From: a virus
Direction: 5' to 3' (one strand)
Length of the DNA stretch: 25,490 nucleotides
IMG/VR virus record: IMGVR_UViG_3300021475_000052
Span: 1 to 25,490 of that record
The number at the start of each line of letters is the position of its first letter. Position 1 is the first letter of the stretch. The notes beneath the pieces are model-generated. The model did not search any database. It saw only the letters and a list, made by a program, of their open reading frames with translations, and was not told the origin of the DNA. Positions 1 through 17,368 of the stretch are shown piece by piece. The translations under genes were made by a program, and so were the position numbers.

Positions 1-120
1 AATGCGGACTTCGCCTGTCGGTGGCGCTGATCCAGATTCTACTACAGGTTTGCTATCCTGACGTTTCCGTAACCAATTGACGAGGGGCAGGTTTTCTGCG
101 CGGTGATGGAGTCCCGACAG

Positions 121-145
121 AAAAACCCGGCGTTACAGCGCCGGG
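121..145 (-). terminator. Rho-independent terminator closing the leftmost minus-strand transcript
   Basis: Read on the minus strand, a perfect 7-bp GC stem (CCCGGCG/CGCCGGG, loop CTGTAA) is followed directly by five T residues. It lies about 180 bp past the stop of the 405-aa TnpB-like gene, so that transcript should carry a substantial 3' noncoding tail. Confidence 0.8.
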
Positions 146-327
146 CTTGTCAATCATGGGACGGAAAGGCGGTGGTCCTATGTACACCGTGCGGCTGACG
201 TTTGCGATCCATTCGATCGTAATCACAGTCACGCTATCGATCCGAAAGGGCCGGTAGCCTGACTGCAGGGAGCCGGATCAAGCCCGATCCGGCTCCCTCA
301 GCCGCAAATATAACACAGTCGTCCGAT
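146..327 (-). ncRNA. Candidate 3' noncoding RNA of the TnpB-like gene (hypothesis)
   Basis: Between the stop codon at 328 and the terminator at 121-145 there is no gene. The stretch contains a perfect 12-bp inverted repeat (268-279 with 286-297, 6-nt loop). A 7-bp palindrome (321-327 with 331-337) has the TAA stop in its loop. TnpB and nuclease-dead TldR proteins are known to use a guide RNA made from the region downstream of, or overlapping, the 3' end of their gene. The position and hairpins here fit that pattern, but I cannot identify a scaffold or guide by homology. No CRISPR-type repeat array is visible. Confidence 0.3.
268..297. repeat. Perfect 12-bp inverted repeat (hairpin)
   Basis: GGGAGCCGGATC and its exact reverse complement are separated by AAGCCC. 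There is no T-tract on either side, so it is less terminator-like than the hairpin at 121-145. It could be an RNA structural stem in the 3' tail of the minus-strand transcript or a protein-binding palindrome. Confidence 0.7.
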
Positions 328-1545
328 TTAATCGGACAACTCAGCGACCGTCTCGCCGCTGACTTCTTCTTCGAGTGCTATGAGCTCGATCGACGCGGCG
401 TCGGCCTTGGTCGCCAGCTTGCCTTTCAAATCGGCCCAGACAAAATCCGGTGCGAAGGTGCGGATCGAATCGTCCCAGCGGATCGCGCGGAAGCGCCGGC
501 GCACGGCGTAGTTCACGATCATCGCGGCCAGCTCGTGCGCGGCCGTCTGCATCCGGTGATGGTACCGTTCCGAGGCGTGATTGCGAAGCCTTTCGAAAGG
601 CGGTGTCGGACGATGCTCGGCTTTGGTGTCGTCGGCCCAGTCCTGCAGGCGTTTCTTATGCTCGATCGACCAGCCGGGGATCTGGTTGCCGTGGTAAGTC
701 CAGAGCGCCTCATCTTTGACGTTGAGGGCTACGGCCATTGCCTCCGCGGTCGAGCGCACGAACAACGTGTTGACCTCGCGCTCCGCCATCGCGGTGCGTG
801 GCAGCCAAGCCACCATTTTGACCATGATGGTGGCTCCCTTGCCATGACCCTGGCGATAGATGTCCACCTGGCCCTGCTCGGCCTCGCCCGAGACAATCTG
901 CTTAACTGCCTTGAGCTGGCGGTGGAAGCCGCCCGCCGCGCCGCGCAGCCGCAAGTGAATGCGTTCTTTACCGCCGATGGGCACGCTGATGATCGGCTGG
1001 CCATTGTCGAGCGCGATCGACCAGCCCTGTCCCGGGATCGGGAACGGCGAAGGATAGCGGTAGGTCGGCAGGCTTCGCCGGCAGGTCCAGATGATGTCTT
1101 TCCGCAGAGCCTTGTATTTCTGCGTGATGGCCTTTTCCATCGCCGCGACGGTTTGCGACGGCAGATCCGGAAAGCGCTCGCGCGCCTTGGGGTAAAGATA
1201 GACCCCGGCCATTGCCGGCATCTTCTCTTCGCCGGCAAAGCGCCGGACATCCTTCGCGTAGAGTTCCGTCATCAGCCAGTTGCTCGCCTGGGTGGTGACG
1301 GCCCACAGCGCATGCAGGCTTTCATTCAATTCATCCCATGTACAGTCGAGCGGGCTTGCTACCGGGAGACTGACCGCACGCAGGATAAAACGCTCACCCC
1401 AGCACTTATCGCAGTACACCTTGGCCTGGTGCCGCTTCCAGCCCGAGGGCAGCCGTTTTTTGGACTTCGGCGGCTTCTTCCAGCGGACAGTCTTGCCGCA
1501 AATGCTGCAAGGGACGCTCGGATATCCTTCTTCTTCTGTAACCAC
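328..1545 (-). CDS. TnpB/Cas12-like protein, truncated, apparently RuvC-inactive
   Basis: This 405-aa protein has an N-terminal CxxC...CxxC pair (C13, C16, C45, C48). A helical segment at about 70-155 reads like the TnpB/Cas12 recognition lobe (LYPKARERFP, then LPSQTVAAME, then KYKALR). A beta-rich WED-like part follows at about 160-250 (SLPTYRYPSPFPI, then GKERIHLRL, then MVKMVAWLP). Residues 258-275 align by eye with RuvC-I (usually GIDLG), but the catalytic Asp position reads LFVRST. Residues 351-361 (RAIRWDDS) match RuvC-II with Asp for Glu. Residues 368-390 match the W..L...L..KA helix that normally precedes the zinc finger, after which the protein ends. The C-terminal zinc ribbon and RuvC-III Asp are therefore missing. 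A guided DNA binder without cleavage, like TldR, is the inference; a decayed transposon gene is the alternative. It is the last gene of the minus-strand cluster. Confidence 0.6.
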   Translation of the reverse strand: MVTEEEGYPSVPCSICGKTVRWKKPPKSKKRLPSGWKRHQAKVYCDKCWGERFILRAVSLPVASPLDCTWDELNESLHALWAVTTQASNWLMTELYAKDVRRFAGEEKMPAMAGVYLYPKARERFPDLPSQTVAAMEKAITQKYKALRKDIIWTCRRSLPTYRYPSPFPIPGQGWSIALDNGQPIISVPIGGKERIHLRLRGAAGGFHRQLKAVKQIVSGEAEQGQVDIYRQGHGKGATIMVKMVAWLPRTAMAEREVNTLFVRSTAEAMAVALNVKDEALWTYHGNQIPGWSIEHKKRLQDWADDTKAEHRPTPPFERLRNHASERYHHRMQTAAHELAAMIVNYAVRRRFRAIRWDDSIRTFAPDFVWADLKGKLATKADAASIELIALEEEVSGETVAELSD

Positions 1546-4857: not shown

Positions 4858-4934
4858 TGGGGCGCGAGGCCGGATTCGAACCGGCGATCAGAGAGTTTAG
4901 AAGTCTCTGCTTTGGGCCACTAAGCTACTCGCGC
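4858..4934 (-). tRNA. tRNA, anticodon best read as CUA (possible amber suppressor); UCU-Arg alternative
   Basis: The acceptor stem GCGCGAG/CTCGCGC is perfect. The D-arm has a 4-bp stem (GCTT/AAGC), and the T-arm GCCGG-TTCGAAT-CCGGC is canonical. The discriminator is C and the CCA end is encoded. With standard spacings (one base at 26, five in the variable loop) the anticodon stem is GAGA/TCTC with a C-C mismatch at 31-39 and A26-T44 also pairing. The loop is then TTCTAAA and the anticodon CTA, which reads UAG. Shifting the stem by one gives loop CTTCTAA and anticodon TCT (Arg), but that loses a position and two pairs. A C discriminator is unusual outside tRNA-His. Confidence 0.85.
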
Positions 4935-5373
4935 ATTCGGGAACTGGTTCCTCGGGATGGACTCGAACCACCGACCGCGTTGGCAGCTTTTGAGGGCCGC
5001 CAGCTGCTCTATCCAGCTGAGCTACCGAGGAAGAAACTGTTGGCGCCAACGTTGGCGATGACGTTGGCGATGGCGTTGGCGATGACGTTGGCGACGTTGG
5101 CTGCCACAGACGATAATTCCGCAGGCACTGCTTTTGATCCGGCCGCAGCGGAATCGTAGAAATCGCCGTGAAGCCGAGATCGAGATCGGGCTCACGCCAC
5201 GCGCAGTGAGGGATGGCATTGTCGGCCAGCTTCGCGGCCACTCGCATGAGTGCCCGGGTGTCCGGAACGCCGATGAGGATGATGTTGGGTATGCCGTCGA
5301 CCTCGTATCCGGCCGCGCCGGCGATGGTATGCGTGGCGTGATTCGACTGGACCAGCTGATCGGCGAGCGACAT
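4897..5373 (-). CDS. Pth2-like peptidyl-tRNA hydrolase with Ser/Pro/Thr tail, reading into the tRNAs
   Basis: The N-terminal ~95 residues match the Pth2 fold by eye: LADQLVQSNHA, then IILIGVPDTRALMRVAAKL, IPHCAWREPDLDLGFTAIST and a late PLRPDQK. Pth2 enzymes release tRNA from stalled peptidyl-tRNA. The listed ATG probably is not the true start. Upstream codons in frame read YYIFVFVRQD, which is the expected first beta strand (...VRxDM). They have no ATG until ATG-ACG-TAG at 5448-5440, where an in-frame UAG interrupts. After the domain comes an S/P/T repeat tail. There is no stop before the tRNA genes, so the frame runs through tRNA 4945-5031 into the next one. Confidence 0.6.
   Translation of the reverse strand: MSLADQLVQSNHATHTIAGAAGYEVDGIPNIILIGVPDTRALMRVAAKLADNAIPHCAWREPDLDLGFTAISTIPLRPDQKQCLRNYRLWQPTSPTSSPTPSPTSSPTLAPTVSSSVAQLDRAAGGPQKLPTRSVVRVHPEEPVPECASSLVAQSRDF
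4945..5031 (-). tRNA. Unusual tRNA with extended anticodon stem
   Basis: The acceptor TCCTCGG/CCGAGGA, D-arm (GCTC...GAGC), T-arm (GGTGG-TTCGAGT-CCATC) and encoded ACCA end are all canonical. The part between D- and T-arm is 33 nt instead of about 23. It folds best as a 9-position stem (GCTGGCGGC with GCTGCCAAC, one C-A mismatch and one G-T pair) closed by the 8-nt loop CCTCAAAA. If the T is position 33, the anticodon is CAA (Leu); if the loop is read one base earlier it is TCA (UGA). It does not fold as a class II tRNA with a long variable arm. The anticodon is therefore uncertain, though the tRNA framework is clear. Confidence 0.75.
5039..5104. repeat. Tandem repeat, 12-bp unit GTTGGCGATGAC
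   Basis: Successive units begin at 5039, 5051, 5063 and 5075 with small changes, then shortened units follow at 5087 and 5096. The array abuts the 5' end of the second tRNA. On the minus strand it encodes the Ser/Pro/Thr-rich tail of the Pth2-like protein. Confidence 0.85.
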
Positions 5374-13267: not shown

Positions 13268-14419
13268 ATGAACAACGAAGCGTTTCTTTCAGACCTGGGC
13301 GAGCTCGTCCAGCGTCACCGGGGCTCCGACATTCCGGCACTCACGCAGCCGCTTACACCGCGCGAGGCCGGCGAATTCATCCAGACCTGCATCAAAGCCG
13401 ACCGGTCTTTCATGGCTCACGGCAAGCCGGGCGTCGGCAAGTCGGAGATAGCCATGCAGCAGGCGGATATCGCCTTTGCCGCAAAGTACGATTGCACGAT
13501 CGATGACTACACGGTGCGCGACGCGAAAGGAAAGATTCTCGGGGTGCATCAACGCCCGTGGTTCTATGACTTTCGCGTGGCGCAGCGCGACGGCGTCGAT
13601 CTGACCGGCGTGCCCTACGTAGAAAAGGGCAAAGGCGAGGCATCGACCAGATGGGCCACGCCGGACATCATCGCCGATCTGGATCCGCGCGGCGGTCTTT
13701 TCTTCTTCGATGAGATCAATCGCGGCTCGGACATGACGCGCAACGCGGCGTTTTCGCTGGTTACGACCAAGAACGTCGGCAAGACTGCTATGCCGCCGAC
13801 ATGGGTGTGCGGCGCGGCCGTCAACGATCAGGACATCGGCGTATCGAAGATGAGCGCGGCTTTGACTCGCCGGTTCGCTCACTTCGAAATGGACACGGAC
13901 CTGAACGACGTTTGCTTTTATGCAATCAAGCGCGGATGGGAGCCGGTCGTCGTAGCGTTTCTGAAGATGTTCCCTGCCATGCTCAATTCCTTCAATCCGA
14001 AGGAGAGGGTATCGCCCAATGCCAGAGCATGGGAATTCATCAGCAACATCGTCGCGGCCGGACCGGCCAGCAGTCGCGTCCAGCACGCGCTGTTCGCCGG
14101 CAGCGTGGGCGAGGCCGCGGCCATCAGCTTCAGCGCTTTCCTTCGGATGTTCAACGAGCTTCCGCACATGGATGCCGTGATGAACACGCCGAAGACCGCA
14201 CCACTGCCGACCAGTCCGGGCGCCATGTATGCCATCAGCGCCGCGCTGGCAAAACGCATGACCGATAAGAACATCGGGCGCTGCCTGACTTATCTGAACC
14301 GTCTCGAGCAGAAGGACTATGCGGTATTCGCCGTGACTTCGGCGATGGGCCGCAACCCCGATCTGGCAAAGACGCCCGAGAGCATGAAGTTTCACGTAGA
14401 ACACCAGGAATTGATGTAA
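13268..14419 (+). CDS. MoxR/CobS-like AAA+ ATPase
   Basis: The 383-aa protein has Walker A GKPGVGKS (52-59), Walker B LFFFDE (144-149), a sensor-1-like Asn at 186 (AAVNDQD) and the MoxR-type ALTRRFAHFEM (199-209), which includes the arginine finger. MoxR-family ATPases form rings that remodel partner proteins, usually with a VWA-domain protein. Here a VWA/metallopeptidase gene lies 1.6 kb downstream with a DUF3150-like gene between, the layout of a MoxR-VWA chaperone system in phages and large plasmids. The start follows AAAAGGACAAAACGACT. Its target is unknown. Confidence 0.85.
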   Translation: MNNEAFLSDLGELVQRHRGSDIPALTQPLTPREAGEFIQTCIKADRSFMAHGKPGVGKSEIAMQQADIAFAAKYDCTIDDYTVRDAKGKILGVHQRPWFYDFRVAQRDGVDLTGVPYVEKGKGEASTRWATPDIIADLDPRGGLFFFDEINRGSDMTRNAAFSLVTTKNVGKTAMPPTWVCGAAVNDQDIGVSKMSAALTRRFAHFEMDTDLNDVCFYAIKRGWEPVVVAFLKMFPAMLNSFNPKERVSPNARAWEFISNIVAAGPASSRVQHALFAGSVGEAAAISFSAFLRMFNELPHMDAVMNTPKTAPLPTSPGAMYAISAALAKRMTDKNIGRCLTYLNRLEQKDYAVFAVTSAMGRNPDLAKTPESMKFHVEHQELM

Positions 14420-15689: not shown

Positions 15690-16049
15690 ATGGACATCAA
15701 CACACAGAAAGCCTTCAGCCTGGCCATGGCGGCCGTGCTGAAAGCGCACTTCCCTGCCCTCGGCACTCAGAATGAAATGCCTGGCGCGGCCACCGTGGAC
15801 GCGCTCAGCAGCCTGTACGAAAAGGCAAAGCTCGGCCAGCCGCTGGCGGGCCGGCCTGACGGCAACCCGGATCCGACCACTGACCGGCGCCGGACACTCA
15901 AGGCGATCAGCGACGCCATTCGCGATCTGGTGTCGTCCCATCACTTTATGAAGCGTGCGAAGTTCCGCGATTCGCTTCTATCGGAGCTCGTCATTCTCAT
16001 CGAGCACCTGCGGCAATTCCGGATCGTAGCGGAGGAACTCAGCAAATGA
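15690..16049 (+). CDS. Hypothetical helical protein, 119 aa
   Basis: A leader AAAGGACAAAACA precedes the ATG, and the end overlaps the VWA gene by ATGA, which suggests matched amounts. Mostly alpha-helical with an N-terminal hydrophobic helix pattern. It may be an accessory part of the MoxR-VWA group, inferred from position only. Confidence 0.55.
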   Translation: MDINTQKAFSLAMAAVLKAHFPALGTQNEMPGAATVDALSSLYEKAKLGQPLAGRPDGNPDPTTDRRRTLKAISDAIRDLVSSHHFMKRAKFRDSLLSELVILIEHLRQFRIVAEELSK

Positions 16050-17368
16050 TCCCGGTATCAGACGAAACACTCATAGAGCAGGTCCGATCGGAACTGTTGC
16101 TCGACAGCGAGCATCCTTCCGCGGCCTTCTTTGCAACGTGCGCGTACCATCTGACGTTCGTTGCCGACCGCAACGTAGAAACGATGGAAACCAATGGGAC
16201 GATTCTGAAGTTCAACCCGGACCACGCGCGATCGCTTCCGCCGAGCCGCCGCCTTGCCGTGTTCGCGCACGAGGTAGCACACGTAGCCGGCCTCGATCCT
16301 TACCGGCGCGGCAGTCGCGATAACCACCTGTGGAACGTCAGCTGTGACCATGTCGTGAATCTCGAGCTGAAGCAAGCCGGATACGACGTGGGCGACGACT
16401 GGTATTGCAGCGACGACTACAAAGGCATGTCGAAGGAGGCCGTGTATGCCAAACTCGCCAGCGCACAACAGGACGAGCCGCCGCCCAATCCGCAAGAGCC
16501 GGAACCTGATCCGGAACCGGAGGAACAGCCGGACGACGAACCGGACGGAGACGACACGCCGGCACCGGGCGACGGTGAGGGCGACGGCGATGTAGACGGC
16601 GATGTAGACGGTGAGGGCGAGGGCGCCGCACCTTCGATCATGCCGGGTTGTGAAACGGGCCACTTCGTAGACGCCGACACCGCGCCTCAGCAGACGGACG
16701 AAGACGGCAATCCGGGCCCACCGCCCATGACCGCCGAGGATTGGGCGATTGTGACGGAGCAGGCAGCCAGCGCCAGCCGTGCTGCCGGATCAATGGGAGC
16801 GGGGATCGACCGCCTGATCCAGAGCGTTCGTGAGCCGCAGACCGATTGGCGCGAGGAATTGAAGGCATGGATCAGCGATTCCGTCGCCGTCAATACCAGC
16901 TGGACGCGGCCGAATCGGCGCTTCGTCGGGGCCGATACTTACCTGCCCGGTCCCATTAAAGATCAGGTAGGTTCGATCGTCATCATCGTGGATACGTCCG
17001 GATCGGTCAGCCAGCGGATGCTCGACTCGATCGCGGCACACGTCAATATCATCGCCAGCGAAGTGAATCCGGAATCGATCGACGTGATTTACTGCGATGC
17101 CGACATAAAGGGCCACGAGGTATTCGGCCCTGGCGATGATGTTGTGCTTCACGCGAAAGGCGGCGGCGGGACAAGGTTCGCCCCGGCACTTGCCTACATC
17201 GAGGAAAAGGAGATCGAACCGATCGGCGGGATCTTCCTGACGGATCTGGAGAACTACGACCGGGATCCGCTGAAGGAACCAACATGGCCCATGTTGTGGG
17301 CCACACCGCTCTGGATCACGGCGCAGCCGCAGTTCGGCGACGTCCTCAGGGTGGATATCGAGCAATAG
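16046..17368 (+). CDS. VWA-domain protein with metallopeptidase-like HExxH N-terminus
   Basis: The 440-aa protein has HEVAH at 75-79 within RLAVFAHEVAHVAGLD, followed by HLWNVSCDHVVNLEL (93-107), the putative metallopeptidase-like part often linked to VWA proteins (DUF2201 type). Residues about 143-195 are an acidic Pro/Glu/Asp/Gly linker with a GDVDGDVDGEGEG repeat. The C-terminal VWA domain carries MIDAS residues DTSGS (316-320), Thr376 (GGGGTRF) and Asp400 (FLTDLENYD). It is the expected partner of the MoxR-like ATPase. Whether the HExxH part is an active protease is unknown. Ends in TAG. Confidence 0.85.
   Translation: MIPVSDETLIEQVRSELLLDSEHPSAAFFATCAYHLTFVADRNVETMETNGTILKFNPDHARSLPPSRRLAVFAHEVAHVAGLDPYRRGSRDNHLWNVSCDHVVNLELKQAGYDVGDDWYCSDDYKGMSKEAVYAKLASAQQDEPPPNPQEPEPDPEPEEQPDDEPDGDDTPAPGDGEGDGDVDGDVDGEGEGAAPSIMPGCETGHFVDADTAPQQTDEDGNPGPPPMTAEDWAIVTEQAASASRAAGSMGAGIDRLIQSVREPQTDWREELKAWISDSVAVNTSWTRPNRRFVGADTYLPGPIKDQVGSIVIIVDTSGSVSQRMLDSIAAHVNIIASEVNPESIDVIYCDADIKGHEVFGPGDDVVLHAKGGGGTRFAPALAYIEEKEIEPIGGIFLTDLENYDRDPLKEPTWPMLWATPLWITAQPQFGDVLRVDIEQ

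Follow-up and report, generated by a model that had tools for sequence, protein, structure and literature searches.

A phage-borne, C-terminally truncated Cas12f relative as a probable RNA-guided DNA-binding protein

The window, meaning the whole stretch of DNA that was analysed, was a partial (fragment) IMG/VR virus record of 25,490 bases. Near its first base it carried the gene of interest and the region downstream of that gene, with the following features on the minus strand:

328..1545 (-): gene for a shortened Cas12f-like protein, predicted to be nuclease-dead; 405 aa, GTG start, TAA stop
1402..1509 (-): N-terminal CxxC...CxxC element, C13/C16/C45/C48, from an alignment of seven members
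706..765 (-): RuvC-I counterpart (residues 261-280), catalytic Asp absent, from alignment with relatives and active Cas12f
460..486 (-): RuvC-II equivalent, residues 354-362, AIRWDDSIR, from alignment
150..327 (-): structured untranslated tail, from folding; the family scaffold has no match here
121..149 (-): probable intrinsic terminator, AAGCCCGGCG-CTGTAA-CGCCGGGTTTTT, a GC-rich stem-loop plus a run of T, from sequence and fold
36..41 (-): possible -10 element TAGAAT of a separate guide-RNA promoter (weak), read from the sequence
1..33 (-): 5' end of the family scaffold, with hairpin CGCCACCGACAGGCG at 26-12, from a covariance model (11.0 bits, 3' truncated)

The window protein belonged to a family of 14 distinct proteins, its 13 relatives being encoded on 10 phage or mobile contigs and 3 bacterial chromosomes. 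PADLOC profiles for Cas12f (1.9e-13) and Cas12u3 (2.2e-12) matched the window protein nearly end to end, with the last ~55 profile positions unmatched, and profiles from Pfam, PHROGs and NCBIfam gave no match. An AlphaFold2 model was built from four family members (mean pLDDT 78, pTM 0.53). The structural comparison that had been proposed as a check on the original prediction placed AsCas12f first in the Foldseek ranking of the predicted fold (1.7e-17), and PDB ranks 1-22 were all Cas12f. The matches included the dCas12f-gRNA complex 9n9c (8e-13). TnpB first appeared behind the 22 Cas12f entries (8.8e-9), and Cas12m far below the best Cas12f value (2e-4 and weaker). Global TM-scores of the model were modest (~0.4), as expected because the protein is flexible and multi-domain and model confidence is moderate. 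Judged by predicted fold and profile, the family is nearer to Cas12f than to TnpB and is placed in the Cas12f lineage.

Relatives and the missing nuclease parts

Exact 8-mer scans with the window protein alone found nothing in viral or genome collections, and tblastn with it found nothing among named phages or plasmids. Search patterns were widened by artificial conservative substitutions, and these rows were used as patterns only; each match so obtained was confirmed by tblastn with the real protein, and later alignments held real sequences only. The first relaxed pattern search returned a 43% identical protein on an 82-kb phage contig (G001, locus L011), and the second returned the chromosomal loci L019 (Paludibaculum MAG) and L020 (Verrucomicrobiia MAG). 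Among 396 Acidobacteriota and 388 Verrucomicrobiota genomes, profile searches uncovered three more loci, in only two genomes, both of Acidobacteriota (L026/C112, L027/C799 and L028), so the family is rare. The last protein scan added L058, L059, L060, L062 (the same as L063), L064 and L065 and re-found C112, and L068 and L067 came from a scan that used only the scaffold sequence. Contig C112 was circular (63.6 kb, 103-nt end overlap), and its terminase, portal and major head protein identify it as a phage. The terminase and one ORFan gene of the window phage, used as queries, returned no near relatives of that phage.

Nuclease sites were aligned with AsCas12f and one active phage Cas12f as references. 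The active phage Cas12f has GIDLG at the RuvC-I position, where the window protein has no Asp. The window ORF stops ~43 residues after RuvC-II, where active Cas12f has TS..C..C; RuvC-III is missing because the ORF ends where this zinc ribbon should begin, and no frame downstream of the stop restores the ribbon. Zinc ribbon and RuvC-III were absent, with the same end point, in every complete family member (L060, cut by its contig end, was not among these), and the RuvC-I Asp was missing across full-length open frames differing by up to ~70%. The acidic residue of RuvC-II was kept in most members (E to D) and lost in L020. The shared truncation and the missing Asp in intact frames of such divergence argue against decay. 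On these alignments it is well supported that family members do not cut DNA, and the window protein is almost certainly a non-cutting relative of Cas12f. A partner nuclease may act in trans with the family protein.

The original prediction had described a shortened, RuvC-dead TnpB/Cas12-like protein that reads WDD in RuvC-II and stops right ahead of the zinc ribbon and RuvC-III, and the Cas12f profile, the fold, the missing RuvC-I Asp and the alignments all agree with that description. Its reading of RuvC-I as LFVRST was right as to the missing Asp, but the residues depend on the alignment, which gives either LFVRST or MAVALN, with Asp in neither. The CxxC...CxxC element, described there as an extra N-terminal element, was indeed present but is a family trait rather than an addition of the window copy: C13, C16, C45 and C48 were invariant in 7/7 aligned proteins. 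The element is a probable zinc finger, and would bind zinc through these cysteines. The L065 protein appeared to be without it in the frame read, its start being uncertain.

Scaffold RNA, arrays and single guides

A conserved RNA of ~115 nt lay downstream of family genes, and a covariance model of this scaffold was built from seven relatives. Among these seven founding scaffolds, 13/19 pairs had compensatory changes, and covariation was 0.506 (0.193 when shuffled; <=0.128 when slid). Eight later scaffolds, from outside the model, had 92.5% paired cells and a covariation of 0.628 (0.196 when shuffled), values that lean towards the model because the eight-sequence alignment was fitted to it. The scaffold adjoined every family gene tested. 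Four whole genomes held one scaffold match per family gene, save for the duplicated end of circular C112. L068, found by scaffold alone, encoded a family protein directly upstream of the scaffold, which makes it an independent test of the linkage between scaffold and gene. Two scaffold copies were present in one locus at L062/L063 (5180 and 5626, +), as in G001. On a 106-kb viral contig, L067 (6626-6739, -) had a scaffold followed by a hairpin resembling a repeat and by what may be a single guide, with no family gene in the 9.7 kb covered; it is possibly a stand-alone guide RNA.

The scaffold model matched the 330-nt flank of the window gene at 33-1(-) (E=0.0015), and with filters off this stretch also ranked first across the entire window (E=0.13). 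These 33 nt are read as the start of the family scaffold; the match is thin evidence when taken alone, and is carried by its position, its strand and its loop ACCGACA. The scaffold runs off the contig end at position 1, so the guide or array of the window is out of sight. The window contained no CRISPR array, and the contig ends before the place where one would stand. A promoter scan upstream of the scaffold start gave no full sigma-70 match and no clear -35.

In eight phage or mobile loci the scaffold led into a CRISPR array. The array of C799 (G353:C799) had a 36-nt repeat (CTCGCAGCGGCTAACGAAACGAAGCGTCGCTGCGGG) and spacers of 34-38 nt, and that of C112, directly after the scaffold, had repeats of ~34 nt and spacers of ~38 nt. 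Repeats numbered 13 in L058, 6 in L059, 5 in L064, 3 in L062 and 2 in L068. Besides two copies of the scaffold, G001 carried five repeats of 38 nt (CCCGTGAGGTGACC-loop-GGTCACTTCGGG) and ~30 lone copies of the 3' 12 nt of the repeat (GGTCACYTCGGG), at intervals often of 12-37 nt; repeats and half-repeats all lay within 2.3 kb beside the gene and were confined to the locus. Directly behind the G001 scaffold came the first repeat's 5' half, able to pair with the half-repeats, and scaffold and half-repeats would together form a tracr-like arrangement. At 5340-6560 of L011, the G001 locus, the ~30 12-nt half-repeats with their short, variable intervals made an unusually compact array.

In the three chromosomal members (L019, L020 and L028) the scaffold was followed by a single hairpin resembling a repeat and a single putative guide. 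The L019 gene overlapped the stop codon of a protein kinase by 4 nt and was followed by scaffold, repeat-like hairpin, putative guide (AACAAGGAACGTAATTCG...) and then the kdpFABC potassium-pump genes; upstream lay a response regulator and a sensor kinase with DUF4118. The L020 gene followed a pump of the AcrB type (RND) and was flanked by two small histidine-rich proteins similar to each other; it lay upstream of a metal-efflux-linked gene. The L028 RNA ended just before the gene of an outer-membrane beta-barrel receptor. The contrast between arrays and single guides fits domestication. The putative guides of L019 (~7330) and L020 (~7357, +), from different phyla, started alike (AACAAGGAACGTAAT and AACAAGAATGTAACT).

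Searches for guide matches in phage or host, also proposed with the original prediction, returned no credible target. In their own phage the G001 guides had no more seed matches than expected, and those of L019, L020 and L028 had no credible second site in their own genomes at <=3 mismatches in 20 nt. Spacers of C112 and C799 gave nothing convincing in their metagenome bin, and the spacers of two arrays gave no match among named phages.

Proposed function and rival readings

The window protein is read as an RNA-guided DNA binder of a nuclease-dead, C-terminally truncated Cas12f family that represses transcription, with a probability of about 0.74. RNA binding, DNA targeting and repression by the family complex are what we infer from the anatomy. 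The protein would bind a structured RNA, the scaffold, that is transcribed immediately past the gene, the scaffold being fused to, or paired with, repeat and guide. The complex would find DNA by base pairing and, with no cutting, would block transcription (CRISPR interference). RNA-guided double-strand DNA cleavage is predicted to be absent in the family. Repression would be the simplest consequence of an RNA-guided binder that does not cut, by analogy with TldR, Cas12m2 and a phage 'dCas14'. In phage members with arrays several targets would be addressable, and chromosomal members, with one guide, would probably control the neighbouring operon; the family appears rare, mostly phage-borne and sometimes fixed in bacterial operons. 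Phages carrying the family are probably equipped with a natural means of turning off selected genes without cutting.

A broader scenario is evenly balanced between holding and failing. It takes the family as a distinct, phage-spread clade that lost the C-terminal nuclease part and performs multiplex natural CRISPR interference, with at least three bacterial captures as single-guide regulators of neighbouring operons (potassium uptake, metal efflux, outer-membrane receptor) and one phage in which repeats shrunk to 12-nt half-repeats are served in trans by a shared scaffold.

The strongest rival, held tentatively and clearly below the repressor reading, is an RNA-guided binder that silences competing phages or plasmids, an immunity as proposed for Cas12m, instead of regulating own or host genes. 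Phage arrays carry many different spacers, and Cas12m2 gives protection by silencing transcription, with no cutting (PMC10442227). The two arrays compared had, however, no spacer match in known phages, the stretches read held no adaptation gene, and single-guide chromosomal members sit in metabolic operons. Some phage members might nevertheless use their arrays to exclude rival phages.

Guide-directed activation or recruitment, as in dCas12f-sigma factor systems, is unlikely. The nuclease-dead dCas12f complexes 9n9c and 9n9m, whose partner is a sigma factor, were among the fold matches, an ECF-like sigma gene lay 3 kb from the L019 gene, and L028 stood upstream of an outer-membrane receptor gene; but no sigma gene was recognised beside the window gene among the genes examined, or found conserved beside relatives, and the L019 sigma gene looked unrelated, with the reverse orientation and a kinase gene of its own next to it.

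The structured tail at 330-121 had been put forward as the guide RNA of the window copy, which is very improbable. It does follow the gene directly with a very stable fold and then a terminator: 100-330(-) folded at -114.1 kcal/mol (-78.5 for shuffles, z -7.5), and the T-run hairpin at 149-121 followed. The hairpin of the original prediction stood, except that the perfect hairpin has 13 bp and not 12, and its strong terminator stood as a probable one, the 121..149 element not being listed by a consensus terminator scanner. Against the tail, the family scaffold model gave no match there and alignment to the G001 scaffolds was not above shuffles, the scaffold start was found at 33(-), from where it leaves the contig, and L065 likewise has a gap between stop and scaffold. 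Aligning homologous loci thus did reveal a conserved, covarying scaffold, but beyond the proposed tail. Least probable of all is a decaying Cas12f/TnpB pseudogene, in that the truncated C-terminus and lost catalytic residues are set against full-length conserved frames with a shared end point in all complete relatives, a covarying scaffold and maintained arrays.

Among known systems, the family shares with Cas12f (type V-F, AsCas12f branch) its fold, sequence, compact size and scaffold RNA with a repeat-spacer array. Unlike Cas12f, the family is without RuvC-III, zinc ribbon and RuvC-I Asp, has the N-terminal CxxC...CxxC element and is mostly phage-borne. Complexes 9n9c and 9n9m are likewise naturally nuclease-dead Cas12f, but no sigma-factor neighbour was seen to be conserved in the family. 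Cas12m (type V-M) silences without double-strand cuts, as is proposed for the family, and is a distant fold match to it. By description, the family also resembles the single phage 'dCas14' of Al-Shayeb et al. 2020, a phage-encoded V-F effector with an array, lacking one catalytic residue and suggested to repress and not to cut (PMC7162821); 'dCas14' is a single case, whereas the present family is without the whole C-terminal nuclease part.

The original prediction had likened the protein to TldR, nuclease-dead TnpB-like repressors (PMC13418256). The likeness held in that the window protein is nuclease-dead, phage-borne (chromosomal in some relatives, as in TldR) and followed by an RNA from downstream of the gene, and is most plausibly a repressor; it failed in lineage and guide layout, TldR being of the TnpB lineage with single guides and the present family of the Cas12f lineage with mostly multi-spacer CRISPR arrays. 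The three chromosomal members had a TldR-type single guide without array, unlike the majority of phage members.

Phage V-F arrays, one catalytically impaired phage Cas14 (PMC7162821), TldR and dCas12f are already on record. The open-access literature gave no account of a family with the C-terminal nuclease part lost throughout, borne by phages with arrays and by operons with single guides. If true, the repressor reading would connect CRISPR arrays borne by phages, the nuclease-dead TnpB regulators known as TldR, and Cas12f, which have so far been described apart. The guide-RNA layouts form a series (36-nt-repeat array, half-repeats, single fused guide), so that conversion between array and single guide is directly testable. 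The family protein would also be a natural DNA-binding effector of very small size whose scaffold is defined, and its single-guide members point to concrete operons.

Other features of the window and related phages

The stable tail at 150-327 (-), between the window gene and the terminator, had no counterpart seen in relatives, and an 11-nt match between the tail and window position 595 was put down to chance. Between 9459 and 25017 (+), AAAGGACAA (often AAAGGACAAAACGA) stood just upstream of many plus-strand start codons, with 17 exact copies of AAAGGACAA on the plus strand of the window and none on the minus strand; by sequence it is a predicted ribosome-binding or promoter motif of the phage.

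A tRNA gene lay at 4858-4934 (-) (ARAGORN anticodon CTA, tRNA-Pyl label), with a second tRNA-like stretch, not called by ARAGORN, at ~4950-5033. The CTA-anticodon tRNA is a possible amber suppressor. The window genes checked were open in the standard code, several ending in TAG. Genes at 13268-14419 and 16046-17368 (+) formed a pair that many phages have: an AAA ATPase (phrog_1297) and a metallopeptidase/VWA-like DUF2201 protein, whose family phrog_1314 carries the label HNH endonuclease. Many Salinibacter phages (L010 at 948-2450 and 182 Salinibacter phage records) encode a protein without annotation that matches AsCas12f in its C-terminal part.
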